A stretch of DNA of 29,218 nucleotides, from IMG/VR virus record IMGVR_UViG_3300045962_000016, positions 1-29,218 of that record. The stretch is one strand, 5' to 3'. The notes below the pieces were generated by a model. The model had not been told where the DNA came from, did no database searches, and saw only the letters and a program-made list of their open reading frames with translations. Positions 1-17,290 of the stretch are shown here, piece by piece. The DNA comes from a virus. Made by a program: the position numbers and the translations under genes. How positions within the stretch are numbered: position 1 is the stretch's first letter; each line of letters begins with the position of its first letter.

Positions 1-974
1 GTTGATGTTGAAAACGAACATAATCCGGAATCAGTGACAAGTATGTTTAAAACTCCCGCACCTAAATTTGTGAATGTATTAGACCTATCAAAGGTAATAT
101 TTGTTGAACCATTAGACCCTGAATAATAAAATGGTTCTGTACCTCCCGTTATATTAATCGTTACTTCACCATCATTACTATCACAATTTGGACTAACACT
201 AGTTATTGAACCAAACCCAACAGGTAAAACTTCAGAAATTAATTGAGTTTTAGATACTGAACAACCTGTACTATCAGTAACGACAACACCATATGAACCA
301 GCGGTTAAACCTGTTATACTATCTGTAGTCCCACTGTTAGACCATAAATAAGTGTAAGGCGGATTACCTGTTAATCCCGTGATAAATATTTTACCGGAAC
401 TCTCGGCACAACCCGCATCATCAACAGAATAAAACCCATAGTCAATAGTTGTTGAACTTTGAATTATTACCGTTTCAGATTTTCCGGTACAACCTCCACC
501 ATCACTACCAATAACATAATATGTGCTAGCAGATAAACCATTAAAAACAAATTCATTACTAAGTGACGACCCTGAAGTCAGAAACCCGTTAACATTATCA
601 TATAACTCAAACGTCGCAGTGTTATAAAAATTAGTCGTTGTAGCGGTAAGTGAACCGTTATTATCACCACATATCGTGTTATCAATATTAGTAATATCTA
701 TTGTAGTCCCACTTGATATATTAATATTAACAGCTTGTACCGTATTGGTGGGTGCACAACTATCTATGATATTAAAAGTATAGGTTCCCGCAGATAAACT
801 ATTAATAGTATAGCCCGTAACACCGGGACCTAAAGGTATAGTACCTAATGAAGGACTGACCCACTGTATTGTATAATCGGGTGCACTACCTTCAATATCA
901 ATACTAAAACCACCCGAACCATTGTTCAAACAATCACCACTAATACTTGGTAAATATGATAATAGACAACTCAT
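1..974 (-). CDS. Tail/receptor-binding protein with tandem SprB-like repeats (partial, C-terminus off window)
   Basis: My own translation from the ATG at 974 stays open to base 1, giving about 324 residues with the C-terminus missing. The protein falls into about four tandem units of 70-80 residues. Each tends to start with a Cys/Asn/Asp-rich stretch and end with a pattern such as GLTAGSYGVVVTDSTGC, which resembles SprB repeats (PF13573) of Bacteroidota gliding adhesins and surface proteins. The third unit, around residues 170-245, is the clearest, with PPYTYLWSNSGTT ahead of that ending. These beta-sandwich repeats are typically surface-exposed and adhesive. It starts two bases after the stop of the 997-residue tail protein, at the distal end of the structural operon, which fits a fibre, tip or receptor-binding component. 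The repeat call is from sequence; the adhesion role is inference. An A-rich leader and TATAAATA-like sequences lie upstream inside the previous gene. Confidence 0.72.
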   Translation of the reverse strand, partial: MSCLLSYLPSISGDCLNNGSGGFSIDIEGSAPDYTIQWVSPSLGTIPLGPGVTGYTINSLSAGTYTFNIIDSCAPTNTVQAVNINISSGTTIDITNIDNTICGDNNGSLTATTTNFYNTATFELYDNVNGFLTSGSSLSNEFVFNGLSASTYYVIGSDGGGCTGKSETVIIQSSTTIDYGFYSVDDAGCAESSGKIFITGLTGNPPYTYLWSNSGTTDSITGLTAGSYGVVVTDSTGCSVSKTQLISEVLPVGFGSITSVSPNCDSNDGEVTINITGGTEPFYYSGSNGSTNITFDRSNTFTNLGAGVLNILVTDSGLCSFSTS

Positions 975-976
975 TA

Positions 977-3970
977 TTAATTACATAAAATATTTATATT
1001 TATACCGACATTGATTTTAAAATTTGTCCCTGTTTCAGAAACAGAACATATAGGGTTATATACACCAACCTTACTACTCACTAAACTCGATGGGTCTTCA
1101 AAGTAATAATAGTCATAACCTAAATTTTTTAAATCGTTTAAAGACTGAGTTAAGGCGTTATCCCAAACTAAGTTTGACGGTGAACTTAATTGTGGTGTTA
1201 AATACCCCAATCCATTAAAAAAAGGTGTTTCAACAACTAACACATCGTCAATATACAATTCCACATACCAATTAGTTTGTAAACTATTTATAACACAATC
1301 ATCCAACACATATCCATTATCTCCCAAATAATTTGTTAACACCACACCCAATAAAGAACCAAAGTCCTGTATGTCCTCATTCCACGGATATACACTACAA
1401 ACTAACTCTTCAATAGGACAATCAGGTCTAAAAATATTTGTAACTAACTCACATGGGTTACAAGGTACAGGAATCAATTGACACCCTTCTTGTCTTCTCC
1501 ATACCATCTTTTGTCTATGAAATATTGAATTTTCGTATTTAACACCACTATTCCATATTGTGGAAGCGGGTATCATTTGTTCAACTAACCTAACCCAATA
1601 ATCACCGATACCCACAACATATTCAATCATATTTTCATAGTTGAAATTATTACTTTCGATACCTATGTTTTCCTGTGATTGTAAATATTTCCAATACACA
1701 GACTCAAGTGTAGGGTATCCACCTGTTTTACCATTAGAAGTATACATCCTATTTCTAACATTAATCATGTTAATCCAAAATGTTTGAGCGAACTCAAAGA
1801 ATGTTTGAGTCCTTGGTCTTGGCGAAACAGTTGTATCATCAACCCCACCTCTAATAGGTAAATTAATATAATTATCACCTGATATTGGGTACCCATATCT
1901 ATTAGACATATCCCAAACATCATAAACTAAACCTTGAGCCGGATTTAAAAATAAATCAACATTTTTTACATTTAAAACTAATTTATCGTTTTCGGTGTAA
2001 TATACTGCGTTCATCCGACCATCTAAATTACTCCTTAAACCGGTTTCAGTGTCAGTCCAACTTTTATTATTATCAATTTCCTTACGTAAGTTAAACTTAA
2101 CACCCATATATGGAAAATCCTCATATCTATTCAAATATTCTTGACCATAAGTAAACGGCTGTAAAATAGTTTGAAAATCCGGATTGTTCCCACTAAAAAC
2201 GCTGTTAGTTAAATCTACTTTTTCAGGTGACCTATGTTGAGGAGTTGATTCAAACCATCCCGCACCTTTTTGAAAAAAGTATTCACCACCGATTAAAGGT
2301 TTCTGAGGGTACCCATTACTATCTACCGGATATTCTTCTATTTGAACATTGGAATCTTCAATCGTATTACTAGTGGTAAAACCTGTATATTGTACCCCCA
2401 TAATAGAAAAGGTGTTTCCTGATTCTAATATTGGCGTATTAGAAACGTAAGTACCTCCCGATATTTCAGCATATTGTTTATCAAATTCTGTTACACTTAT
2501 TTTTTGGTCGGCTAAATACACATACTCATTAAATTCAACTAAAGCATCAGGAGCACCTATTAATTTCATCAGATACTCAATAGACTTTCTTGTCCCTTTA
2601 GATTTAAATAAGTAACCCGAATTCAATATCAAATTCCTATAATATTCATAGTTAAGCTCATCAGGAGTTTTTTCAGTACTTAAACCACTAAATTGTGATT
2701 GGTCAGTGTTTGAACCCCCAAATACAGAATTTAAAAATTCATCATTACTTATGGGTGAAATATTAGTTTCCCATCCCAATGTTTGTGATAAATTTCTTAA
2801 TAATTGTGAAGGTATATCATTTCCGGTGTTATAATTAACCGAATTCATGTAAGCTAACGCATCTATAAATTTCTTAGATTCATCAAAACTCCTACCATAG
2901 ATTTGTAAAGTTTTTTCAACTTTTTGGTCTGACGTATCAAATTCCTTTAACGAACCTGTTATCATAAATCTAGAAATTATATTAGTTTTATAACTATCAA
3001 ATTCTTGACTTACATCATTTAGTTGAGTTAAATAATTTTGAAATCTAGATGTTAATATGTCTAAATTCCATTGTCCATATAATGGCCAACTAATTCTATT
3101 GGACGCAATACTAAATGTACCATCATCAGATTCTCTCGGAACTTTAAATGTTGCGGTGTAAATAGGTGAAACATCTCGATTAAGTAAATATTTTTCAACT
3201 TCATCAAAATACATACTATATGATTTATTAACCTCAGTATCGTTAGGTCGTATAACTAAATCATCATAGGTAAATGATTGACCTGAAAAAGGATTACCTT
3301 GTACATAAAACTTTAAAATACCTGTACTTAATGACGTTGTTGGCTGTAGACTAGTTAATTTGTATTCCCCACCATTGAGGAATAAAGAATATTTAGTAAA
3401 TTCAACACTAATATTTCTTAGAGGTGATACTTCATTTTCTCTAACATCTAAATTACGTGAAGAATTTGTTGAAAAGTCAACCGAAAATGGGTTTCTTAAT
3501 CTACTAACATTTAACTCTATCTTAGTTTGGTCATATTCACTATAATAAATAATATTATCCGCCGTAATACCTGTAGTGTAATCTATACCCATAGATGTTG
3601 ACTCTATACCTGCAGGAAAATAATTAATAATGTTTTGAACTGATACGGACATTCTTTTAACCATTGAACCGTATTGTGTGAAATTGGTAATTTGAGATAA
3701 ATCAAAATTAGGAAAAACTTTAAAATTCTTTTGGAAAATAAGTCTTGATTCCTCATCACTATTAATACCTAAGTTTTCTAAAGAAATTGGCGTAGAAAAT
3801 GTACCCGTATTAAAGGTCCTATTAACCTTTTCATCGGATGTTGATTTAAACTCGAAATTTCCTTGTGTTAATCCACCTCCGGTAACTGTCTGTAAACCGA
3901 CAATGTTATCTGAGAAAGTACCTTCCCCTGATGGGCCCTGAGGCGGGTAACTATATTTAACTACCGGCAT
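977..3970 (-). CDS. Large baseplate/tail structural protein with gpI-like KGT motif
   Basis: This 997-residue protein has no signal peptide or membrane segment. The middle (roughly residues 320-480) is helical and holds SGYLFKSKGTRKSIEYLMKL at about 450-470. That resembles the 'KGT..aie.llk..g' segment of phage tail protein I and related baseplate wedge-to-fibre connectors. Flanking regions look beta-rich, as in virion proteins. Near the C-terminus five cysteines fall within about 30 residues (about 829-858), which could bind a metal or form disulfides. The start overlaps the preceding stop by one base (TAATG), so the two genes are probably translationally coupled, and the SprB-repeat gene follows two bases after its end. 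A baseplate connector role is inferred from the motif and context. I cannot match it to one T4 protein, although gp7- or gpI-like function is plausible. Confidence 0.6.
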   Translation of the reverse strand: MPVVKYSYPPQGPSGEGTFSDNIVGLQTVTGGGLTQGNFEFKSTSDEKVNRTFNTGTFSTPISLENLGINSDEESRLIFQKNFKVFPNFDLSQITNFTQYGSMVKRMSVSVQNIINYFPAGIESTSMGIDYTTGITADNIIYYSEYDQTKIELNVSRLRNPFSVDFSTNSSRNLDVRENEVSPLRNISVEFTKYSLFLNGGEYKLTSLQPTTSLSTGILKFYVQGNPFSGQSFTYDDLVIRPNDTEVNKSYSMYFDEVEKYLLNRDVSPIYTATFKVPRESDDGTFSIASNRISWPLYGQWNLDILTSRFQNYLTQLNDVSQEFDSYKTNIISRFMITGSLKEFDTSDQKVEKTLQIYGRSFDESKKFIDALAYMNSVNYNTGNDIPSQLLRNLSQTLGWETNISPISNDEFLNSVFGGSNTDQSQFSGLSTEKTPDELNYEYYRNLILNSGYLFKSKGTRKSIEYLMKLIGAPDALVEFNEYVYLADQKISVTEFDKQYAEISGGTYVSNTPILESGNTFSIMGVQYTGFTTSNTIEDSNVQIEEYPVDSNGYPQKPLIGGEYFFQKGAGWFESTPQHRSPEKVDLTNSVFSGNNPDFQTILQPFTYGQEYLNRYEDFPYMGVKFNLRKEIDNNKSWTDTETGLRSNLDGRMNAVYYTENDKLVLNVKNVDLFLNPAQGLVYDVWDMSNRYGYPISGDNYINLPIRGGVDDTTVSPRPRTQTFFEFAQTFWINMINVRNRMYTSNGKTGGYPTLESVYWKYLQSQENIGIESNNFNYENMIEYVVGIGDYWVRLVEQMIPASTIWNSGVKYENSIFHRQKMVWRRQEGCQLIPVPCNPCELVTNIFRPDCPIEELVCSVYPWNEDIQDFGSLLGVVLTNYLGDNGYVLDDCVINSLQTNWYVELYIDDVLVVETPFFNGLGYLTPQLSSPSNLVWDNALTQSLNDLKNLGYDYYYFEDPSSLVSSKVGVYNPICSVSETGTNFKINVGININILCN

Positions 3971-6083: not shown

Positions 6084-6893
6084 TTATTGAGGATTTACAT
6101 ATTCATACCAATTAATCGGTGTATCGGTACCAACTCTATTACCTAGATTATTTTTAATCTGATAAGTTTTTTTATTGTAATCAAGATGAACATCATAATA
6201 AAAATATTCAGAACCTTCAAAAACAAATTTATCTGAAACTATTTGAGATTGTGGAGTATTCATCATTTTAACAAATACCCCTAATCTTGCATCAAAAAAT
6301 TTGGCTGTCATGTGAAATGTATTAATATTTAAGTATTCACTATTCCTTAACCAATAGTAAAAGAAACCTTCTTTATCCCCAACATAATCTAACGAGTATG
6401 ATGGTTTTTTTATATCAACATTAGGTTTAAATATTGACATTGAAACGTTTTCCGTACCCCCTTGTTGAACAGGAATTACGACAGTAAAAAGGTTTTTTTG
6501 ACTAATTGGGTTTTTCGTATCATAAAAATCCAATTTAAAAAACGACTTAGTAAATGGTTTTTCAAAATAGTAAACTTGTTGAGGTATAAATCCCTCGGTT
6601 ATGTAACTGACCTCCCAATCAGAATCTGATGAAGAATTAATATCCGTACCACCAAAAAAATGAAAATCATAGTTAACATTAGTTTTTATTTTTCCTGAAT
6701 TAATAGGAACATATTCTTCATGAGCAAACCTACCCACCTCAAAGTCATCAACACTACCTATAATTTCCTTAATAACTTCAGTTTCAAACTTATCAATACT
6801 ATCATCTTGACCTAAAGAATCCCATTTAATTTCTAAAGGTAAGTTGATGTATTTTCCACCATCTCTCGGTATTTTAAATTTATATTTATTCAC
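6084..6893 (-). CDS. Uncharacterised virion structural protein (269 aa)
   Basis: I do not recognise the family. The 269-residue protein is rich in aromatic residues (many Phe and Tyr), with alternating hydrophobic and polar residues typical of beta-sandwich virion proteins. It has no signal peptide, membrane segment or enzyme motif. The start overlaps the end of the upstream 609-residue gene by 8 bases, and the next gene begins after a 1-base gap, so the three are tightly coupled. A baseplate or tail-associated role is inferred only from the operon. Confidence 0.52.
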   Translation of the reverse strand: MNKYKFKIPRDGGKYINLPLEIKWDSLGQDDSIDKFETEVIKEIIGSVDDFEVGRFAHEEYVPINSGKIKTNVNYDFHFFGGTDINSSSDSDWEVSYITEGFIPQQVYYFEKPFTKSFFKLDFYDTKNPISQKNLFTVVIPVQQGGTENVSMSIFKPNVDIKKPSYSLDYVGDKEGFFYYWLRNSEYLNINTFHMTAKFFDARLGVFVKMMNTPQSQIVSDKFVFEGSEYFYYDVHLDYNKKTYQIKNNLGNRVGTDTPINWYEYVNPQ

Positions 6894-8715
6894 AGTTGTC
6901 TATTAATGGTTCTTGAGTTACACTTTGTTCTATATAATTAGTTCCTTCGGGTATTATTCTGAATATAAAATTTTCATAAGGGTAATGAGTATCGTTTAAA
7001 AATGGGTAATCCACACCAACACCATCAGTATCAATATACCCAAAAGGGTATAAATCTCTCCATATAAATTTATTACCATCGACAGAAAAATATGAATAAT
7101 CAGGTATTCCCGCAACATTTTTTTTGTCACCTTCTTCGATATATCCTGAGTAATCACGTATTTTTAACGAATAGTGAGGTTCATAATAATAACCTAACTG
7201 ATTCTCATTATTATCGGTTTCACTGATATCAAACACAAACTTATTAAATGTAAATTTATGTGTTAATTTAGAAACCACTCTCTCTTTCTGTTCAATATCG
7301 TTCCACTCACACAAATCACCTTCAATTATATCACCACTTTTTAATGACTTTACATAGGTGAAGGGTATAGGTCCATTTAAGGGTCCCGTCTGAACCGGTT
7401 GGGTAGTAGTATAACCACTTAACTCAAAATTAGTTTCAGATAACCCTTCACAAGTACACCACCAAGGTTGTGGGTAACCATTAACTAACGGTTTATTAAA
7501 TTCGTAACCTTGTTTTAACCCGGACTTAAGTGATGGGGTACGAAATAACCCAAAAGTATACCCAAAATAACCTTTCCATATAACACTAAAAAATAATTCA
7601 CTTACAGGTCTCTTTTGATTATCTAAGACACCATTTAAATCAATATCTTTATTGAAAGATAATGTATACGAACCACTACCTTCTATTGTTGAAACTCTTG
7701 ATTTTTTATTTGGGGTAAAGTTTTTACTTTCATACTGTCTTTTAACCCCAAAGGCGTTTTGTTCAAAACCTGCTTTAGTTAGCACTGCTTCACTAACATC
7801 AGTTAATAACTTATGTCTCCTAACATAGTAACTTGAAATTGTCTCACCACTTATATTAATATTGATTATTCTTTTAAAACAACCTATCACTCCGTCATTA
7901 AAAGTAGAACCTGTATAACCCACATTAATTATGTTAAATATATATTCATCAGAACCATAAAAATCATCACCTAAGGACGTAACTTGAAATGTGTTCACCC
8001 CATTATAATTTAAAGGCGTATTTACTCCCGCCACGGTTTCCGATAATTCAACATACTCACCAACAGATAAATTATGTTTAACTACAGAACGAAAAGAAAT
8101 AACATCTAAACCTTTACTAGTGGTGTTTTTAATTATAAATGGTAATCCATCAGATACGTTCCATTCAAATGGTTGGGGAATCGTTAACCCATATCCATCA
8201 AAATAACACTGAAGAGTTTTTTCATATAAATTATCATAAGGATACGAAACAAAATGATTCCAATTATAGGTTGAGGCACTTTTAGCAACAAAATCAATAT
8301 GGTTATCAGGTGGAGCGGTATAACCTGTAACATTATAATCATTCCTTATAAAATCAAACTCATTATATTGTAAAAATCCTTTCCAAAATACCGCAGAACT
8401 TCCTGATGCACACTGTTCTAACAAATCATCAGTAGCATCAACATAAGATATGTTATTTTCTAAAGGTTCATAGTTGGTAGCACCTGTGTATGCGTTTTTA
8501 AATATTAATGAAAATTTACCACTAGGTCTAAAAACAGTAGAACTCTGTCTTTCGTCATCATAAACTTGTTGTAGATTTATATTTACCGACCTATCGAACT
8601 CATCATTAATTTTATTATTCTGAACTAAAGGCACATTCAAGTATAATTCAGTTTCAGGTGCCGACTTATACCTCAATGAACCTAAAACAATCGTAGTATC
8701 AATTCTATTACCCAT
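6886..8715 (-). CDS. Uncharacterised large virion structural protein (609 aa)
   Basis: I do not recognise the family. The 609-residue protein is soluble and predicted mostly beta, with an even spread of Tyr, Phe, Gly and Asn and no signal peptide or membrane helix. The stretch around residues 195-300 (for example VVKHNLSVGEYVEL) resembles the small beta-barrel pieces common in baseplate proteins, but this is only an impression. Its ATG follows the stop of the 1762-residue gene after one base, and its end overlaps the next gene by 8 bases. A tail-tip or baseplate role is inferred from position. A TATAAATA sequence, identical to the T4 late promoter core, lies 22-29 bases upstream of the start. 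Confidence 0.53.
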   Translation of the reverse strand: MGNRIDTTIVLGSLRYKSAPETELYLNVPLVQNNKINDEFDRSVNINLQQVYDDERQSSTVFRPSGKFSLIFKNAYTGATNYEPLENNISYVDATDDLLEQCASGSSAVFWKGFLQYNEFDFIRNDYNVTGYTAPPDNHIDFVAKSASTYNWNHFVSYPYDNLYEKTLQCYFDGYGLTIPQPFEWNVSDGLPFIIKNTTSKGLDVISFRSVVKHNLSVGEYVELSETVAGVNTPLNYNGVNTFQVTSLGDDFYGSDEYIFNIINVGYTGSTFNDGVIGCFKRIININISGETISSYYVRRHKLLTDVSEAVLTKAGFEQNAFGVKRQYESKNFTPNKKSRVSTIEGSGSYTLSFNKDIDLNGVLDNQKRPVSELFFSVIWKGYFGYTFGLFRTPSLKSGLKQGYEFNKPLVNGYPQPWWCTCEGLSETNFELSGYTTTQPVQTGPLNGPIPFTYVKSLKSGDIIEGDLCEWNDIEQKERVVSKLTHKFTFNKFVFDISETDNNENQLGYYYEPHYSLKIRDYSGYIEEGDKKNVAGIPDYSYFSVDGNKFIWRDLYPFGYIDTDGVGVDYPFLNDTHYPYENFIFRIIPEGTNYIEQSVTQEPLIDNCE

Positions 8716-8716
8716 A

Positions 8717-11700
8717 TTAGTTTATTATTATTTCAGTATTTATAAATTTTTGTCTAAACCTATCAAAGGCAGAACCACCTTGTCTCAACCCAAAGTAGAA
8801 GTGGAAAGGACCACCAACAGTAATCCATTCATCACTGTCACCATCAAACCCCGAATTATTTCTATCCCAATTAGCGGTACTTTCATCAATATAAATATTA
8901 GGGTCAGGTGTGTTAATAGCTGAGGATAGTACAGAATATATATGACCTTTATTGAAATAAGTGAAATTACTACCAGCATCAGTTCTAAAGTATCTTGAAG
9001 TAGGTTGTAACCTATCTAAATCTTGATACCTATAAGAAAATAATCCACTATGTGCGGGTGTACCTAATGGATTCTTTTTCCACGTATTATCTTGGTTACC
9101 AAATATCCCACCACCATCAGCATCTCCCTCAATATACCATTGATACATTGGTATTACCTGAGAAAAAACGTTTATATCATTAAATGAACAACCGTCCACA
9201 GAATTAGTAAAAGGATTTAATATTTGTCTTCTCGGACTTATATAATCCCTTGTTTGAGTATTAGATGAAAAGAAAATACCCACAACCGCATTATTACTAC
9301 TAGCATTATTAAAAAATATTGGGTTTTGTTGAGAACCCGCAGGATTAGTATTATCCGGATAATTAGAGGCTTGGAAAGGAGCAACACCTAATTCTGAACT
9401 AATCGAAATTAGTTGAGAGTAATCACCATCAAAAGAACGTTTATACCTACTAAAATAACCTAATATGTTTAACGCCCCTAAAGTGTTTTTTAGAAACCCT
9501 GAGTTTATTAATCTGCTTATAATAAATAGATTTAACATATTATCAACTTCTCCATAAGAAGTTGAATTTAACTTATTAACCACATATCCATCATAATCGT
9601 CCGATAAAACAATTTCTTGTATAAAGGTGTTAATAGGTCCTAAATCCATCATAGTGGTAGGATACTTAATACCATCTTCATAACCAACAAACTTATTGTC
9701 ATCATAATTATACGGACTACTTCGATAGTAAAAATTAAACGTATCATCTAAGTATATAGTCTTTTTACAAAAATTACTTATTGGTTGATTAGGATTTGAA
9801 GAAGTAGGACTAGTAAAGAATACATCATTAGAGAATGGAAAGGCAAACAATGAACCATTTATCCAATTATTATTAAACCTATGTGAAAAAACATTTCTAC
9901 AAGCACCTAAGGCTATCATATTTCTAGATATCCACTCAGGTAACATTCCTAAATCTTTAGGTAATGATAAGAAAACTCTTGTTACAAAAATATAACAACC
10001 CCCCTTAAAAATTCTTTTACCTCCGGATTTATAACAACCATCCGGGTAGTCTTTTATTACCATGTTACCACTCTGCCCATCATAACAATCTAAAGGAGCT
10101 GAACCTTCACAAGTAAACGAGTTTATAACACTATTAATCGCCGTAATTCCTGTTGTCGCATCATCAAAATCACCAAAGGAATCATTTCCCGCACCTGACA
10201 CACTCCCTTGAGTTGAACTAACCCCAACAACACCCGTATTAGGTATTAGATACATTGCTAAAGTTGGGTTTTTTTGTAATGGAGCGGCGTTACAACAATA
10301 TTCAGTTGGTACTGTTGAAATAGGTAATCTATCACCTCTCATCACTATTTGATTATTACTACTTCCTAAAGAATAATTTAATGTGTTACCTGTTGTATTA
10401 TAAATTGGAGAATAATAAAATGTTTGACTTGCTTCAAGATTCAATGAACCTGTTTCACCTACAAAATTGATACCCATCAAAGATGAACCTTCAACAATTT
10501 CATTTGGAAAATAACCTCTGTTTCGGGCGGAGGTTGTACTATTATTTATAAACCCGTCTAAAACTGTAAAACCACCAATATTATCTATATCCCACTCTTT
10601 ACCAAATCTATTACTACTCCTAACTTTTAACCCATTCGAATCTGAAAAACCATATGAGTTAACAGTTGGAGGAGCACTACCAAAACCGCAATCCGGTCTA
10701 TAATTCGTAGAATTTTTATCTAAACTAGAATAATAACTAATTAGATTAGAACTAAAACCACTATATTCACCAACATTTACGGTTCCACCTGTGGTGGGGA
10801 TAGGGTATGAGACCAACGAAGGTTGATATAAAAATGAATCGTGATACAACTTTTGTGAACTATAACCGGTGTCATCATTAACATTAGAGTTAGATAAATC
10901 ACTTGATTTATGACTAACGTTTTTAAACCCACCGTTAATTGGTATATTTAATCTGTATGTATTTCCATTAACCTTAACGGCATCTTCACTAGCATACCCG
11001 AATATCTTACCTAAACCATATTCTATTTCAGTAGGAAGCGAGTAAGGGTCAACACCCCTATTTAAAATTAAAACAATGTTTTCCGAGGTATCTCTAACAT
11101 TATCAATAGGTTTAGTTGGAAATATACCATTGGGTGAACCATTTAACAACCTGTCTCCAACATTGGGGAGGATGAAGGCGATTCCGCTAGTATATACAGT
11201 ATTATATATTTTACTTGTATTATTAAGATATCTAACGTTAAGTGAATTATCTAACTGAGTACTACATTGTCCGCTGAATTCATTATAAGTCATACCCGAT
11301 ATAACTTGAAAATATTCTACATCGGTAGGGAACTTATGAAAGTTAACATTCTCTGTGGACCCCGTTGGTTGACTAACATTAGTGTAAGTTATAGATTGGT
11401 TACCTGAACCGTTTGGATTTGAAAAGTTAACAGTCAGTGAAGGTATATCATATCCGGTAGTAGTATTTATCACACTCGTTTTTGTACTACCTGTTACAGC
11501 GTCGTTACCATAAATATTACCACCCGGTAACCCATTTACATTTACATCTTTGGAATAAGATGGGTTTTGAAAACTTATTAATTGACCCGGACTAAACCTA
11601 CTTATAGTATTCTTATTACATATTAAAATAATAATATTATCAGTATGAAATTTGTTTGGTTCAAGAGTAGGGTTAAATTTAACCTTTACTCTATTAACAC

Positions 11701-14005
11701 CACCACCGGGATTATTAGCATTCTCATTAAAGTATTTGGCTTTAGTATTAAAAAGATTCACCCTATCAGCAATAGGTAAACTTAAACTATGGTACCATCT
11801 ATAATCCACCTTTTCATTATCACTAGGCCTTGGATAAACAACCTCAACGGGAGTTGGTGCACCTATTCCACTCGGACTAGGAGTATCACCACCAATATAT
11901 TGATTACCGGATAATAGACCCGTTATACCTTCTTTTATAGAACTATTAAATAAAGTTAAAGCGGGTACCGTAGTATCAGTTGGAGTAACGTACTTAAACG
12001 CCGCGGTAGTACTTAGTTTTGTAATTGAGCTACTTAAATATAGTTGATTAGCAGGAGTATCGTCCGCTACAATTGTTTCACACGGAATAAACTCGTTTTC
12101 ATCTAATCCTCCCGTTTCATATTCACCATCATCAGGTGTTTCCTCAGGTGGTGAACCATTACTACTACTACAATCACACATTTTACAGTCAGGATAAGTT
12201 AATAATGGTAATGCGATACCCCTCAATTTCATCTTCCATAGTTGGGCTAAAAGTAACCCTAAAGCAATACCAATAACCGTATATAAAACTATCATCGCGG
12301 CATACCCTATAATTAAACCTAAAGCATATGGTATTGTACCCGCAATCAATATAATATAATTAACTATCTTCACGATTGTCCATCCAATTAGTAATGGAAT
12401 TAAAGCAACTCTAAGAATCCAAATAGTAAAATATAATAAATGTAATAGAATTATTAACGCGAAAAATATTGGTGTTAGGATAATACTAAGAAATGTGAAA
12501 AGAATATATAATATATCGAATCTTAAATTACCGTCGTTAGTTGGAAATTTATTATTAGTACTTTCACATTCGCTATCTAAAATATTTTTAACCCCAACAT
12601 ATCTTTGTACCCCACTACCACGTCTCTGTTCATCAATAAATTGTGATACCGTATAAACTTTATTATAAACCATAGGATAAAATCTATCCTCACAATCTAT
12701 AGCTTCTTGTATCATATCTAAACCTGTTGGCGTGGTAACATCCCCATATTCACCCCAATCTAAACTAAACGCATAAGAGTTTGCCGCATCTGTAGAGTTA
12801 ACAACATCAGTCCCACTAGTGTTCCAACCATACTCCTTAACATTAGGAACTAAAAAATAACCTCTTTTAACCGCCTCATTAAGAGTAGATGTTTGACCCC
12901 ACTTGACTTTAAATCGGTACTTACCTGTTGTAGGTATCCCTATTTTAGGGTCATTAGAAATTACCTTCTCCCCAAACTCATTAGTGGTCACATAGTCCAT
13001 ATTCATAGGTACATCAATTAACCACGTACCATTTTCATCAATAACTAATCCCCCACTTGAACCTAAATCCACACTCTCTAAAATCGGTCTACCGTCACTA
13101 TCTTGAAATATAGTTTGTCTTATAGCGAGTATATCTCCGGAGTTAGTAATTAGATTACATTGGTATCCTTGTTTACCTTTAGGTTTACAATTTCGTCTAA
13201 CAGGTGAATCATCAGGTGATGATATAATTGACCCCATAAAAACAGCTGTTGGCCTTACATCAATATTTGCTTCACTACTTAAATCAAAATCAGTTCTATT
13301 AATACCTATATCACATAATTCTTCTTGTCCCCATAACGGCTCTACTTGTATAGTTTTATTTATATTAACAATTTGAGGTAATACTCTTAAATTTTCACTT
13401 GTTTTAAACTCAGTACCGGCAACTTGTTGTTCAGTAGCAACACCCATTCTAACTAAATCTTGAGGAGATAATGAAAATTCACCAATGTCTGATAAATCAA
13501 CATCCATCACAATTTGATGGCCCCCAACAGGAACACCAAACAACATAAAGTCACCACTTTCATTAGTTGTGGCAGTATATTTATAGTACTTGTCAAAAAC
13601 CTCAATTAAATTAGTATCTACAAGTACATCCTCTCTATCAAAAAAAGTACCTGTTGGTTTATGACCACTATGTGATTTAGTATATGGTAATAAATTATAT
13701 CGATACCCATCCTCATTAACATCATTTAATGTTTTGTACGGATACAATTCACTAATAATTGGATTGGTTTCATCTTCACTTTCTAAAGGAATAAAAATAG
13801 ATACTTTAGCGTTTGGGATACCAAATCCATTATTAACACTAACGCGACCAATAACAACACCATAATCAGAACATTGTCTGGTGTAGATATCACTTTGTAA
13901 TAATTTTAGAGATAAAATCTCCAAATATTCAAAATCTTGTTCAATGTTGACATTAATTGATTTGTCAACTCCGGGTGAGGTCCTTATTCTATATGATTTA
14001 GACAT
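8717..14005 (-). CDS. Giant tail/baseplate protein with N-terminal carboxypeptidase-regulatory-like domain and internal multi-helix membrane block
   Basis: This 1762-residue protein is the largest in the window. Residues about 48-170 look like a carboxypeptidase-regulatory-like (Ig-like) domain: GRVSVNNGFGIPNAKVSIFI at 53-72 opens it and NESGDFMLFGVPVGGHQIV at 148-166 closes it. Residues about 496-589 are almost uninterrupted hydrophobic sequence, enough for three to five transmembrane helices. It is followed by PDCKMCDC (Cys607, 610 and 612) and an acidic linker. The remaining 1100 residues are Asn/Ser/Gly-rich and beta-like, as in tail-tip proteins. It begins after a gap holding a candidate promoter and a palindrome, and is followed after one base by the 609-residue gene. 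A structural role is inferred from context. The hydrophobic block is odd in a virion protein and could act in membrane penetration. I cannot assign it to a known family. Confidence 0.6.
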   Translation of the reverse strand: MSKSYRIRTSPGVDKSINVNIEQDFEYLEILSLKLLQSDIYTRQCSDYGVVIGRVSVNNGFGIPNAKVSIFIPLESEDETNPIISELYPYKTLNDVNEDGYRYNLLPYTKSHSGHKPTGTFFDREDVLVDTNLIEVFDKYYKYTATTNESGDFMLFGVPVGGHQIVMDVDLSDIGEFSLSPQDLVRMGVATEQQVAGTEFKTSENLRVLPQIVNINKTIQVEPLWGQEELCDIGINRTDFDLSSEANIDVRPTAVFMGSIISSPDDSPVRRNCKPKGKQGYQCNLITNSGDILAIRQTIFQDSDGRPILESVDLGSSGGLVIDENGTWLIDVPMNMDYVTTNEFGEKVISNDPKIGIPTTGKYRFKVKWGQTSTLNEAVKRGYFLVPNVKEYGWNTSGTDVVNSTDAANSYAFSLDWGEYGDVTTPTGLDMIQEAIDCEDRFYPMVYNKVYTVSQFIDEQRRGSGVQRYVGVKNILDSECESTNNKFPTNDGNLRFDILYILFTFLSIILTPIFFALIILLHLLYFTIWILRVALIPLLIGWTIVKIVNYIILIAGTIPYALGLIIGYAAMIVLYTVIGIALGLLLAQLWKMKLRGIALPLLTYPDCKMCDCSSSNGSPPEETPDDGEYETGGLDENEFIPCETIVADDTPANQLYLSSSITKLSTTAAFKYVTPTDTTVPALTLFNSSIKEGITGLLSGNQYIGGDTPSPSGIGAPTPVEVVYPRPSDNEKVDYRWYHSLSLPIADRVNLFNTKAKYFNENANNPGGGVNRVKVKFNPTLEPNKFHTDNIIILICNKNTISRFSPGQLISFQNPSYSKDVNVNGLPGGNIYGNDAVTGSTKTSVINTTTGYDIPSLTVNFSNPNGSGNQSITYTNVSQPTGSTENVNFHKFPTDVEYFQVISGMTYNEFSGQCSTQLDNSLNVRYLNNTSKIYNTVYTSGIAFILPNVGDRLLNGSPNGIFPTKPIDNVRDTSENIVLILNRGVDPYSLPTEIEYGLGKIFGYASEDAVKVNGNTYRLNIPINGGFKNVSHKSSDLSNSNVNDDTGYSSQKLYHDSFLYQPSLVSYPIPTTGGTVNVGEYSGFSSNLISYYSSLDKNSTNYRPDCGFGSAPPTVNSYGFSDSNGLKVRSSNRFGKEWDIDNIGGFTVLDGFINNSTTSARNRGYFPNEIVEGSSLMGINFVGETGSLNLEASQTFYYSPIYNTTGNTLNYSLGSSNNQIVMRGDRLPISTVPTEYCCNAAPLQKNPTLAMYLIPNTGVVGVSSTQGSVSGAGNDSFGDFDDATTGITAINSVINSFTCEGSAPLDCYDGQSGNMVIKDYPDGCYKSGGKRIFKGGCYIFVTRVFLSLPKDLGMLPEWISRNMIALGACRNVFSHRFNNNWINGSLFAFPFSNDVFFTSPTSSNPNQPISNFCKKTIYLDDTFNFYYRSSPYNYDDNKFVGYEDGIKYPTTMMDLGPINTFIQEIVLSDDYDGYVVNKLNSTSYGEVDNMLNLFIISRLINSGFLKNTLGALNILGYFSRYKRSFDGDYSQLISISSELGVAPFQASNYPDNTNPAGSQQNPIFFNNASSNNAVVGIFFSSNTQTRDYISPRRQILNPFTNSVDGCSFNDINVFSQVIPMYQWYIEGDADGGGIFGNQDNTWKKNPLGTPAHSGLFSYRYQDLDRLQPTSRYFRTDAGSNFTYFNKGHIYSVLSSAINTPDPNIYIDESTANWDRNNSGFDGDSDEWITVGGPFHFYFGLRQGGSAFDRFRQKFINTEIIIN
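8737..8744 (-). promoter_or_regulatory. Possible T4-type late promoter box (TATAAATA)
   Basis: Read on the minus strand this is TATAAATA followed by CTG, 22-29 bases before the ATG at 8715, which would leave a short leader. It matches the T4 late promoter core, but an 8-base AT-only word is expected several times by chance in a genome this AT-rich. It also lies inside the 3' end of the upstream gene. I list it as a weak candidate. Confidence 0.2.
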
Positions 14006-14093: not shown

Positions 14094-14972
14094 TTAGTTT
14101 GGTTTACCATATAAAAATTTTCGTATATCTTTAATTATTAATGTTGATATTTCATTATCTATTGTGGTATGTTCAACACCCTCGATTTCAATATTACGAT
14201 AATTAGTATAACTATTACCTTTATATGGGATAACCAAACCACCTGAATTGGTAAAAAACTTTAAGTTATCCGACCATTTTGGTGAGGTATAGTTATAAAT
14301 GTTTTTAACGTTTTTTCGAACTAAGAAATCGTAATTGTTGTACTTTTTATTTGAAGTATCTAAAAGTATTACTAAGTCTACACTGACATTTATATCATTT
14401 AATTTTTCTAAAGCTTGGACAATATTATATGCACCTAAACTATGACCAACTAAAATAATTTTACCATTTGGTTTAATTAATCTGAAATCATTAACCATAT
14501 TAATTATTTTAATTGGTGTTAGATTAAATGTATGAGTCCCGACATAAGTTACAACTTGAGTTTTACCATTCTCCACATACCGTTCAATCGAACCTAACCC
14601 GTCATAATCTCTAGATGAAGTATTATCTACTTGAATTTGATTGTCTTTAACTCCGTCTTTTATAGGACTATTAGCCCCCTGAATTACTATAACTAAATTC
14701 TCAGTATTTTTATCAATTAATTCAAATTGATATTTTACCACTTCGTAATTTTGTCTATCATTAATATTAATAAATTCAAATATAATTAAAAATATTACGA
14801 TAGATTTTACGATATAACCGATTAGATTACGTTTACTTATTTTTAATAAATAAATAAAAATAAACAAATAAACCCATAACTTTAAGTTTAGAAATAAACC
14901 TGAAATAATACTTTGAATCCAACTTCCGTGGTTCCCCTTAATAAAGTTGATAACAATTTCTAAAATATCCAT
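14094..14972 (-). CDS. Membrane-anchored alpha/beta hydrolase (lipase/esterase-like)
   Basis: This 292-residue protein has two hydrophobic helices near the N-terminus (about residues 23-43 and 50-68), then a soluble domain from about residue 90. That domain shows the alpha/beta hydrolase plan: a first strand NLVIVIQGA (92-100), the nucleophile elbow GHSLG at 176-180 with Ser178, a probable acid Asp205 in VILLDTS, and His268 in GVEHTT near the C-terminus. The spacing fits a Ser-Asp-His catalytic triad. It lies between the gp6 gene and the giant tail gene, separated by short gaps on both sides, so it would be made late. Plausible roles are envelope-lipid or peptidoglycan-linked hydrolysis during lysis, or modification of the infected cell surface. 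The fold call is well supported. The substrate and role are not visible in the sequence. Confidence 0.72.
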   Translation of the reverse strand: MDILEIVINFIKGNHGSWIQSIISGLFLNLKLWVYLFIFIYLLKISKRNLIGYIVKSIVIFLIIFEFININDRQNYEVVKYQFELIDKNTENLVIVIQGANSPIKDGVKDNQIQVDNTSSRDYDGLGSIERYVENGKTQVVTYVGTHTFNLTPIKIINMVNDFRLIKPNGKIILVGHSLGAYNIVQALEKLNDINVSVDLVILLDTSNKKYNNYDFLVRKNVKNIYNYTSPKWSDNLKFFTNSGGLVIPYKGNSYTNYRNIEIEGVEHTTIDNEISTLIIKDIRKFLYGKPN

Positions 14973-15008: not shown

Positions 15009-16847
15009 TTATGAGAAGTTTACGTTCTTAAGGTTTTTAACTCTAACATTTACATCTTTGTTAGGAAATCTTAGTTGGTATGTTTGACTTGGTTCAGCAA
15101 AAATAGTATCATCAATTAAACCAATTTGTCTAGTTTGTGAATCCACATACTTTTGAGAAGTCTGAGATGACGAATATTGACCCCCAACCTTATTATAAAT
15201 TTTTATATCTGATAATGATATAATTCCATTCTCCGATTGGATTAGTCTTCTTAATTCTGATATATAAACGTTCTCACCCATCCCTCTATTTAACGGACTG
15301 AAGAAGTCTGTAACAATATTAATAATTTTAGAAATTAAAGTACCTTGATTTTGACTATTATCTAAAACAACATCGACATCAACAGATAAATCAATAACAT
15401 TCGCAGATTCAATAGATATATAATCATTCATCATTCTATAGTTAGACAAATAATTAGCAACATTACTTTTTAAAGTCTCAGAAACAACTTCAGTTAATTG
15501 CCCCGACTCATTATATGATAAAATCTTAATCTCAATTTTATTGTTATTTTCAGTTATCGCTACTTTAGCAGGTGCACCAAATTGAGAAGGCATAGTTCTA
15601 AGAATAGCATTATAATCATTAATAGTAACAGCCCTATTTTGTGATGAAAAGTTAAACCCAACTAAATTTCTAACCTCTTCAATAGTCATTATATTTGCCC
15701 CACCAATTGCCGCAGTTACATTAGTACATCTTAAGGAATTTATAACACTAGTGTTTATATTATCTGAAGGACCATTAACAAAAAATGAAACAACACCAAT
15801 TTGGTTTATAACATTTACACCTAAATTACTTGCTAAACCACCACCAACTCTATATTGGATAAAAATTGTGGAGTTAGATTTAAGAGTCGACCCTAAAGCA
15901 AAATTATTAGAATATTTATTTAAATTAAGATTGTAACCGTTTCTAGCAAATTCTCTTAGTTGTTCATCCGCAGATTGGCTACCACCACCAAAAGTCATTT
16001 TAAGATAACCTTCAGGAGTATATTCAGTTATAAATTTATCGTTTGTTGTTATATATCTACCAACTTTAATTCCCGGATTATCTGAAACTTTAGAAGGGTC
16101 CTCTACAAATACTTTATCCTCAACTAAAGCCTTAACTTCATACCATCGGTTATCTAAAGATAAAAATTCCTGAGCCGGAGGTACATTGGCATATTGGGTA
16201 CCGTCCTTTAGAAGTACACTAGTCACACCTAACACATTTTTTTCAGGTAGAAATATCTCGTAAAATGGTCGTACATCATTAGGTGATATAGTTTTCTTAA
16301 AAACCTTAGTCACACCGTTAACAACAGTTTCTCTTTTTACTATGGTATAATTTATTAATTTATTATTAGCATCAAAATTAGGTATTTTTAATCTATTAGG
16401 TGTACCGTCACCACCAACCGAAGAAGCAAAATCAATATCATAAACTGTTTCAAAGACTTGTCCGGCACCAATAGATTGAGAACCTCTTCTTAGAATACCA
16501 CAGTACCTTAAATCCTCTTTATCTCCAAAAGCTGGAACCGTTATAGAGAAATCAACTAAAGCAACTGAAGGTCTTTGTCCCGGAATTTTTAAACCATAAG
16601 TTCTAGCGATATTAAATACCGATGATTTTTGTTGAGCGTATTGAAGTACTGTCTCTTGAATACTTCTATCTATATTGAATTGTAGATTATCTGTAACCGC
16701 CGCGTTTAAATCTAACAGAACTGAGAAGACTGACGCATCATTTACGTTATCAACTAAATCAGGGTAATACGTTTTAGTAAAGTTAATTAACTCTGTCCTT
16801 ATACCTTGGAAGTCCCTTGTTGTGTATGAAATTTTTTTATTACCCAT
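15009..16847 (-). CDS. Baseplate wedge protein, gp6-like (Baseplate J family)
   Basis: At 612 residues this is close to T4 gp6 (660). The N-terminus, with MGNKKISYTTRDFQGIR and a following DASVFSVLLDLNAAVTDNL, matches the start of gp6/baseplate J proteins, which dimerise around the central hub and hold the wedges together. The characteristic C-terminal part has VTINDYNAILRTMPSQFGAP at about residues 400-425, the J-family 'V.t..Dy..l..' signature, followed by beta strands and the segment with NRGMGENVYISELRR. It starts 5 bases after the stop of the gp25 gene, the usual order in contractile-tail modules. The wedge scaffold starts inside the phage tail assembly pathway in the host cytoplasm and controls sheath contraction. 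Confident in family, based on sequence and neighbour. Confidence 0.9.
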   Translation of the reverse strand: MGNKKISYTTRDFQGIRTELINFTKTYYPDLVDNVNDASVFSVLLDLNAAVTDNLQFNIDRSIQETVLQYAQQKSSVFNIARTYGLKIPGQRPSVALVDFSITVPAFGDKEDLRYCGILRRGSQSIGAGQVFETVYDIDFASSVGGDGTPNRLKIPNFDANNKLINYTIVKRETVVNGVTKVFKKTISPNDVRPFYEIFLPEKNVLGVTSVLLKDGTQYANVPPAQEFLSLDNRWYEVKALVEDKVFVEDPSKVSDNPGIKVGRYITTNDKFITEYTPEGYLKMTFGGGSQSADEQLREFARNGYNLNLNKYSNNFALGSTLKSNSTIFIQYRVGGGLASNLGVNVINQIGVVSFFVNGPSDNINTSVINSLRCTNVTAAIGGANIMTIEEVRNLVGFNFSSQNRAVTINDYNAILRTMPSQFGAPAKVAITENNNKIEIKILSYNESGQLTEVVSETLKSNVANYLSNYRMMNDYISIESANVIDLSVDVDVVLDNSQNQGTLISKIINIVTDFFSPLNRGMGENVYISELRRLIQSENGIISLSDIKIYNKVGGQYSSSQTSQKYVDSQTRQIGLIDDTIFAEPSQTYQLRFPNKDVNVRVKNLKNVNFS

Positions 16848-16852
16848 AATTT

Positions 16853-17290
16853 TTAAATGTTAATGATTATAAAATCATTACTGCTAAACGCACTGTTATT
16901 TATTGTATAATCTATTTTAACTTTAGCAGTATGTTCTTTAGTTTCTAAACCCGGAACTTGATAAACATTATTATCAGTAGATGGAGTATCTTCAGAAGAA
17001 GGTTTAATACTTATCTCATTTAAAGTTATTCCGGGCATAAACTCATCAACCGCATCTTTTATTTCTGATTGTATATCTGAAAACGTTGGCCCATCCATAG
17101 GTTCAAAAATAAACTCATATAATCTCGTCCCAAAACTAGGTAAAAAATATCTACTACCTTTACGTGTTAATATTAAATGTACTAAATCTGTCCTAATTTC
17201 TTCATCATCAGTTTGGGTTAGTTCCAAAAACTTACCATCCACAGAATCCAAAAATGGAAAAGTAATTCCGTATGTTCTACCATTTGCCAT
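16853..17290 (-). CDS. Baseplate wedge protein gp25-like
   Basis: The 145-residue protein matches the gpW/gp25 family (T4 gp25 has 132 residues). The signature LTRKGSRYFLPSFGTRLYEF is at residues 41-60, followed by IFEPMDGP, and the C-terminal half has the expected strand-helix pattern (DAVDEFMPGITLNEISI). gp25 links the baseplate to the first ring of sheath and primes sheath polymerisation. Its neighbour gp6 follows directly. The gene is the first after the terminator that ends the nrdA transcript, and a copy of the candidate late promoter lies 25-39 bases upstream, so it probably heads the late structural transcript. Strong assignment. Confidence 0.92.
   Translation of the reverse strand: MANGRTYGITFPFLDSVDGKFLELTQTDDEEIRTDLVHLILTRKGSRYFLPSFGTRLYEFIFEPMDGPTFSDIQSEIKDAVDEFMPGITLNEISIKPSSEDTPSTDNNVYQVPGLETKEHTAKVKIDYTINNSAFSSNDFIIINI

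Follow-up and report, generated by a model that had tools for sequence, protein, structure and literature searches.

It is unsettled how the DNA of contractile phages crosses the inner membrane once the tail tube has pierced the outer layers; suspicion usually falls on the tape measure protein. The hydrophobic stretch of T4 gp29 was proposed to act at the membrane, helping to open the inner membrane, and a membrane role was likewise proposed for the tape measure protein of phiCD508 (gp59), which has a three-helix predicted transmembrane (TM) domain (PMC11948020). In a thylakoid-anchored contractile injection system, the protein Cis13 carries a TM helix at the baseplate periphery, and its removal leaves many of the machines free-floating (PMC8894136). 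The ejection proteins gp14 and gp16 of T7 have predicted TM helices and are virion proteins that enter the envelope (PMC8954989). Our search of the literature on phage baseplate proteins with TM helices found no direct precedent for the protein described here, a 1762-aa viral protein termed P0001. Like T4 gp29 and phiCD508 gp59, it would be a component of a contractile tail that contains a hydrophobic helical stretch, whose membrane activity in P0001 is putative. Cis12/Cis13 similarly combine a baseplate-side extension with a TM helix that holds a contractile machine in the membrane; unlike P0001, Cis13 is non-phage, tail-fibre-like and has a single TM helix, and it is likened here by description. 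The same holds for the T7 proteins, which, unlike P0001, are internal head proteins of short-tailed phages.

The window analysed here, the whole stretch of DNA of 29,218 bases, is a complete IMG/VR record that carries gp25- and gp6-like baseplate genes. Beside these lie ORFs (helicase, RecA-like, reductase) that, judged from sequence, are apparent genes of replication and of ribonucleotide reductase. For the RecA-like protein, the closest cultured relatives are in the Flavobacterium phages 'immuto' (43% identity), which are also among the few cultured relatives of the gp6-like protein (27% identity). The gene order of the window recurs almost entirely in two larger records (272 kb and 322 kb). 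Since the 272-kb relative has a tail sheath gene, the viruses of the P0001 family are taken to be contractile-tailed phages, and the lineage is an extensive uncultivated family of large, T4-like phages, whose hosts are probably Bacteroidota. The host is also hinted at by an edge-cut ORF at positions 1-974 (minus strand), in which SprB repeats score above the Pfam cut-off; SprB is a gliding adhesin of Bacteroidota. The 272-kb relative (L150) also has a glycosyltransferase gene (15470-16717) adjoining large repeat proteins.

The genes of the window that bear on P0001 are as follows.

977..3970, minus strand: 997-aa protein with large relatives encoded after gp6 in immuto and Mel-JY01
6886..8715, minus strand: 609-aa protein directly downstream of P0001, in a conserved gene context
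8717..14005, minus strand: P0001, 1762-aa baseplate-operon protein, assigned from its ORF, relatives and gene context
15009..16847, minus strand: baseplate wedge gp6 / J-like protein, upstream of P0001 (PF04865, E 1e-5)
16853..17290, minus strand: baseplate wedge gp25-like protein (PF04965, E 5e-13)

The placement of P0001 inside a baseplate/tail operon, proposed in the earlier note, is borne out by the PF04965 and PF04865 matches close by. Unlike a tape measure protein, P0001 lies between gp6 and other baseplate-operon genes, separate from the likely tape measure gene. Among the 305 loci with a P0001 relative, gp6 was directly upstream in 277 of the 283 testable, gp25 was near in 236 of 241, and the 609-aa gene was directly downstream in 175 of 176 testable. 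This locked position between gp6 and a conserved tail-operon gene makes it very improbable that P0001 functions as a membrane protein of the infected cell rather than as part of the virion. Between gp6 and P0001, the window and the 272-kb relative have a gene (14094-14972, minus strand, in the window) for a 292-aa alpha/beta hydrolase-like protein with a GHSLG motif, Pfam matches below the cut-off and hydrophobic N-terminal segments. No such gene was seen between gp6 and P0001 in the 322-kb relative, and related genes lie upstream of P0001 in 36/283 loci.

Relatives of P0001 were collected from IMG/VR with its sequence as query (64 loci) and with an alignment as query (at least 600 stretches), and two further queries supplied the more distant groups; searching IMG/VR with L069, a compact relative, gave no matches. 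The tblastn searches of 50,697 phage records with P0001 and three distant relatives found no relatives, and no cultured relative was found. P0001 had no meaningful match in Pfam, PHROGs or NCBIfam, and no significant match in a PDB profile search. Foldseek searches with both P0001 models against the PDB, and with the C-terminal model also against viral models, gave no significant match, and a second look with VIA at the C-terminal half returned the lambda tail tip only (Z 2.2, not meaningful). Profile comparison with the baseplate-region proteins of T4, immuto and Mel-JY01 likewise gave no match. Only four matches of the family fall in bacterial genome bins, and these are probably misbinned phage contigs, not resident injection systems. 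P0001 appears to belong to a family of abundant but uncultured, unnamed tail components. Giant proteins related to P0001, up to ~3000 aa long, occur in records of up to 412 kb (L067 and L243-L322), which apparently form a large uncultured branch of big phages.

Within P0001, the following elements are distinguished.

13256..13873, minus strand: beta-sandwich, residues ~45-250, carboxypeptidase-regulatory / Ig-like (AF2 model, VIA Z)
12566..12568, minus strand: invariant C480 just before the hydrophobic block (107/107 near relatives)
12236..12520, minus strand: hydrophobic block, residues 496-590 (end up to 591), from the Kyte-Doolittle profile
12404..12514, minus strand: family-wide core helix with a polar stripe, residues 498-534 (periodicity; within model helix 498-556)
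12233..12322, minus strand: second modelled helix, residues 562-591, in the optional extension (AF2 model)
12170..12187, minus strand: C607-x2-C610-x-C612 after 'YPD', invariant in the near clade

The Ig-like start described in the earlier note is plausible but weak. The best solved analogues of the modelled sandwich, whose confidence is moderate, are carboxypeptidase-regulatory/transthyretin-like domains (VIA Z ~6 over 87 residues), with matches that include carboxypeptidase M, DUF3823 and similar domains. However, no Pfam match above the curated cut-off was found at the N-terminus of P0001, and in its relatives CarboxypepD_reg (PF13620) scored 14-18 bits, below the cut-off of 32.3.

The hydrophobic block begins and ends where it had been placed from the letters, with residue 496 starting at 12520 and residue 590 ending at 12236. 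Its hydrophobicity is far above shuffles: the best 90-residue mean Kyte-Doolittle (KD) value of P0001 is 2.15, compared with at most 1.16 in 1000 shuffles of the same protein. Over 60 residues, the best means of family members longer than 900 aa ranged from 1.04 to 2.96 (median 2.07), and none of the 325 other ORFs of 500 aa or longer in the loci analysed exceeded 0.89. Comparisons with L002, L003 and L006 (~80% identity) gave dN/dS values of ~0.2-0.26 in the first helix and 0.19-0.20 in the remaining block. The cysteines C607, C610 and C612 follow the block and precede an acidic stretch (residues 621-638), as the earlier note had it.

The same layout recurs in relatives. The block, C480, P488 and the three cysteines were kept in 107 of 107 distinct near relatives; because these relatives were selected by having the C-x2-C-x-C motif, the invariance of C607/C610/C612 is partly by construction, a bias that does not touch the block, C480 or P488. 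A metal site of H522 (kept in 102/107) and the three cysteines was considered and rejected, since relatives without H522 keep the cysteines. The sequences would also allow C480 as a possible fourth ligand with residues 607, 610 and 612. Among 151 distant relatives with an N-terminus, 136 retain a shorter hydrophobic block in the corresponding position, followed by a varying cysteine motif (YP-x-C and others). Of the 15 exceptions, nine are truncated at a contig end, three carry a weaker segment in this position, and three (L066, L069 and L267) have no clear block there. The block is thus not a chance feature, because relatives with gp6 directly upstream have it in the same position. It is dispensable for the core, as the compact relatives L066 (766 aa) and L069 (732 aa) lack it. 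Furthermore, the match of L066 covers the N-terminal region up to profile position 464 and resumes in the C-terminal part (1313-1429), so that the block and the middle of the protein seem to have been gained or lost together.

Outside the helices, the AF2 model of P0001 is of poor quality (mean pLDDT 50) and at modest confidence shows mainly strands. In the block it gives helices at 498-556 and 562-591 (pLDDT mostly 75-90), not the beta core that the earlier note had named as the outcome contrary to membrane helices. Column-averaged hydrophobicity over 498-534 has a period of 3.56 residues in distant and 3.58 in near relatives, and none of 5000 shuffles was as strong. The polar stripe comprises positions 500, 504, 508, 511, 515, 518, 522, 525, 529 and 532. 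In the near clade, strongly polar residues make up 25% at the stripe positions and 1% elsewhere, a contrast that is descriptive because the positions were chosen after inspection, the period test being the formal one. Gaps over 488-534 occur in 10/196 sequences, and 21 sequences have extra letters in 485-534. The universal core of the block is therefore probably one continuous alpha-helix of ~37 residues or more (~498-534), possibly kinked at P512. Two TM helices forming a hairpin in 498-534 are less likely, as the 3.6-residue periodicity runs through this segment and AF2 gives one helix. The window's clade has ~15-115 further residues after the core helix. The earlier estimate of three to five helices thus fits the extended version in this clade alone, the family-wide element being one helix.

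A long helix that is hydrophobic except along one narrow face would suit a membrane bundle and a buried bundle alike. Accordingly, the block may be a permanently buried helix bundle that joins baseplate subunits and never meets lipid, with the stripe packing on partners or facing solvent, a reading that we rank nearly as likely as insertion into the membrane, though below even confidence. Its main support is T4 gp7 (L162 7061-10159, gene 7), which has a TM-like helix from ~residue 886 (max19 2.07) and a GenBank note of a 'predicted integral membrane domain', and has nonetheless been solved in baseplates, so that hydrophobicity alone is no proof of insertion. Like gp7, P0001 is large and encoded after gp6, near gp25, with the hydrolase gene intervening in the window; unlike P0001, gp7 has no multi-helix block. 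Comparison of the P0001 family profile with gp7 detected no homology (hhalign probability 0.2%), and very remote homology is possible. The gp7-like candidate by position is the 997-aa protein, a possible gp7/TriB equivalent on that ground only; it is related to a 1265-aa protein of Flavobacterium phage immuto and a 1336-aa protein of Microcystis phage Mel-JY01 (hhalign 78% and 91%). A buried bundle would also agree with the shorter and less hydrophobic block of the distant relatives (mean KD 1.77 over 498-534), and with the closest cultured phages, whose large proteins encoded after gp6 need no such block. However, 1% strongly polar residues at the off-stripe positions of the near clade and a spacing of the flanking motifs that reaches 149 residues in some relatives would be unusual for a water-soluble wedge core. 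In T4 wedge proteins, moreover, the 60-residue mean is at most 0.66, below even the minimum of the P0001 family.

Two facts favour the membrane. The spacing of the flanking motifs in near relatives varies from 52 to 149 residues, since everything after ~535 is variable, and the extensions mostly stay hydrophobic whatever their length. In addition, the putative tape measure proteins of two relatives (581 aa in G002 and 645 aa in G001), assigned by position, size and helix-rich composition and not by homology, have no hydrophobic stretch (max19 1.07 and 1.35, compared with 2.2 in T4 gp29). P0001 itself, being beta-rich outside the block in models of modest confidence, is not mostly helical in the manner of a tape measure protein. 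With these two facts on one side and T4 gp7 on the other, we place first, at somewhat less than even confidence, the reading that P0001 is a virion-stored, baseplate-associated element that enters the envelope of the host upon attachment. The membrane-insertion idea of the earlier note is upheld in so far as the block is membrane-type, alpha-helical and conserved in a baseplate-operon protein, and requires correction in the family-wide number of helices. From the sequence evidence, an envelope-inserting element is plausible, and 'pore' is a step beyond that evidence.

In the insertion reading, P0001 would be a tail component at the baseplate periphery of the virion. Its conserved middle element would consist of the long hydrophobic alpha-helix with its narrow polar stripe, the clade-specific hydrophobic helices and four cysteines at the base. 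Several copies may pack their hydrophobic helices together in the free virion, or under other baseplate parts. On attachment the baseplate would open and expose the helices, which would then insert into the envelope of the host, beginning with the outer membrane; they would hold the baseplate in place and form a seal around the tube. This role would be akin to that proposed for the hydrophobic stretch of the T4 tape measure protein at the inner membrane.

A long hydrophobic stretch can also be inserted co-translationally, and the block might instead anchor growing baseplates to the inner membrane of the producing cell during assembly, with virions freed at lysis. The thylakoid injection system, held by the TM helix of a tail-fibre-like protein (PMC8894136), offers a parallel. 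We nevertheless consider such an anchor improbable, as the family occurs in phage contigs and the four probably misbinned bins, not in resident injection systems. Free virions would, moreover, carry exposed helices or lipid, and we know of no phage whose virions do so.

An extension of the insertion reading, which we regard as unlikely, is that, in this lineage, the element that crosses the membrane has been transferred from the tape measure protein to a giant baseplate protein. A ring of P0001 around the tube would then form or seal the passage through the envelope, with the polar stripe lining its inside and the cysteine cluster (metal or disulfide) clamping its base. With membrane-type helices in a baseplate-operon protein and none in the likely tape measure protein, the P0001 family provides a natural test case for DNA entry by contractile phages, in which the baseplate, rather than the tape measure, may grip or cross the host membrane during infection.
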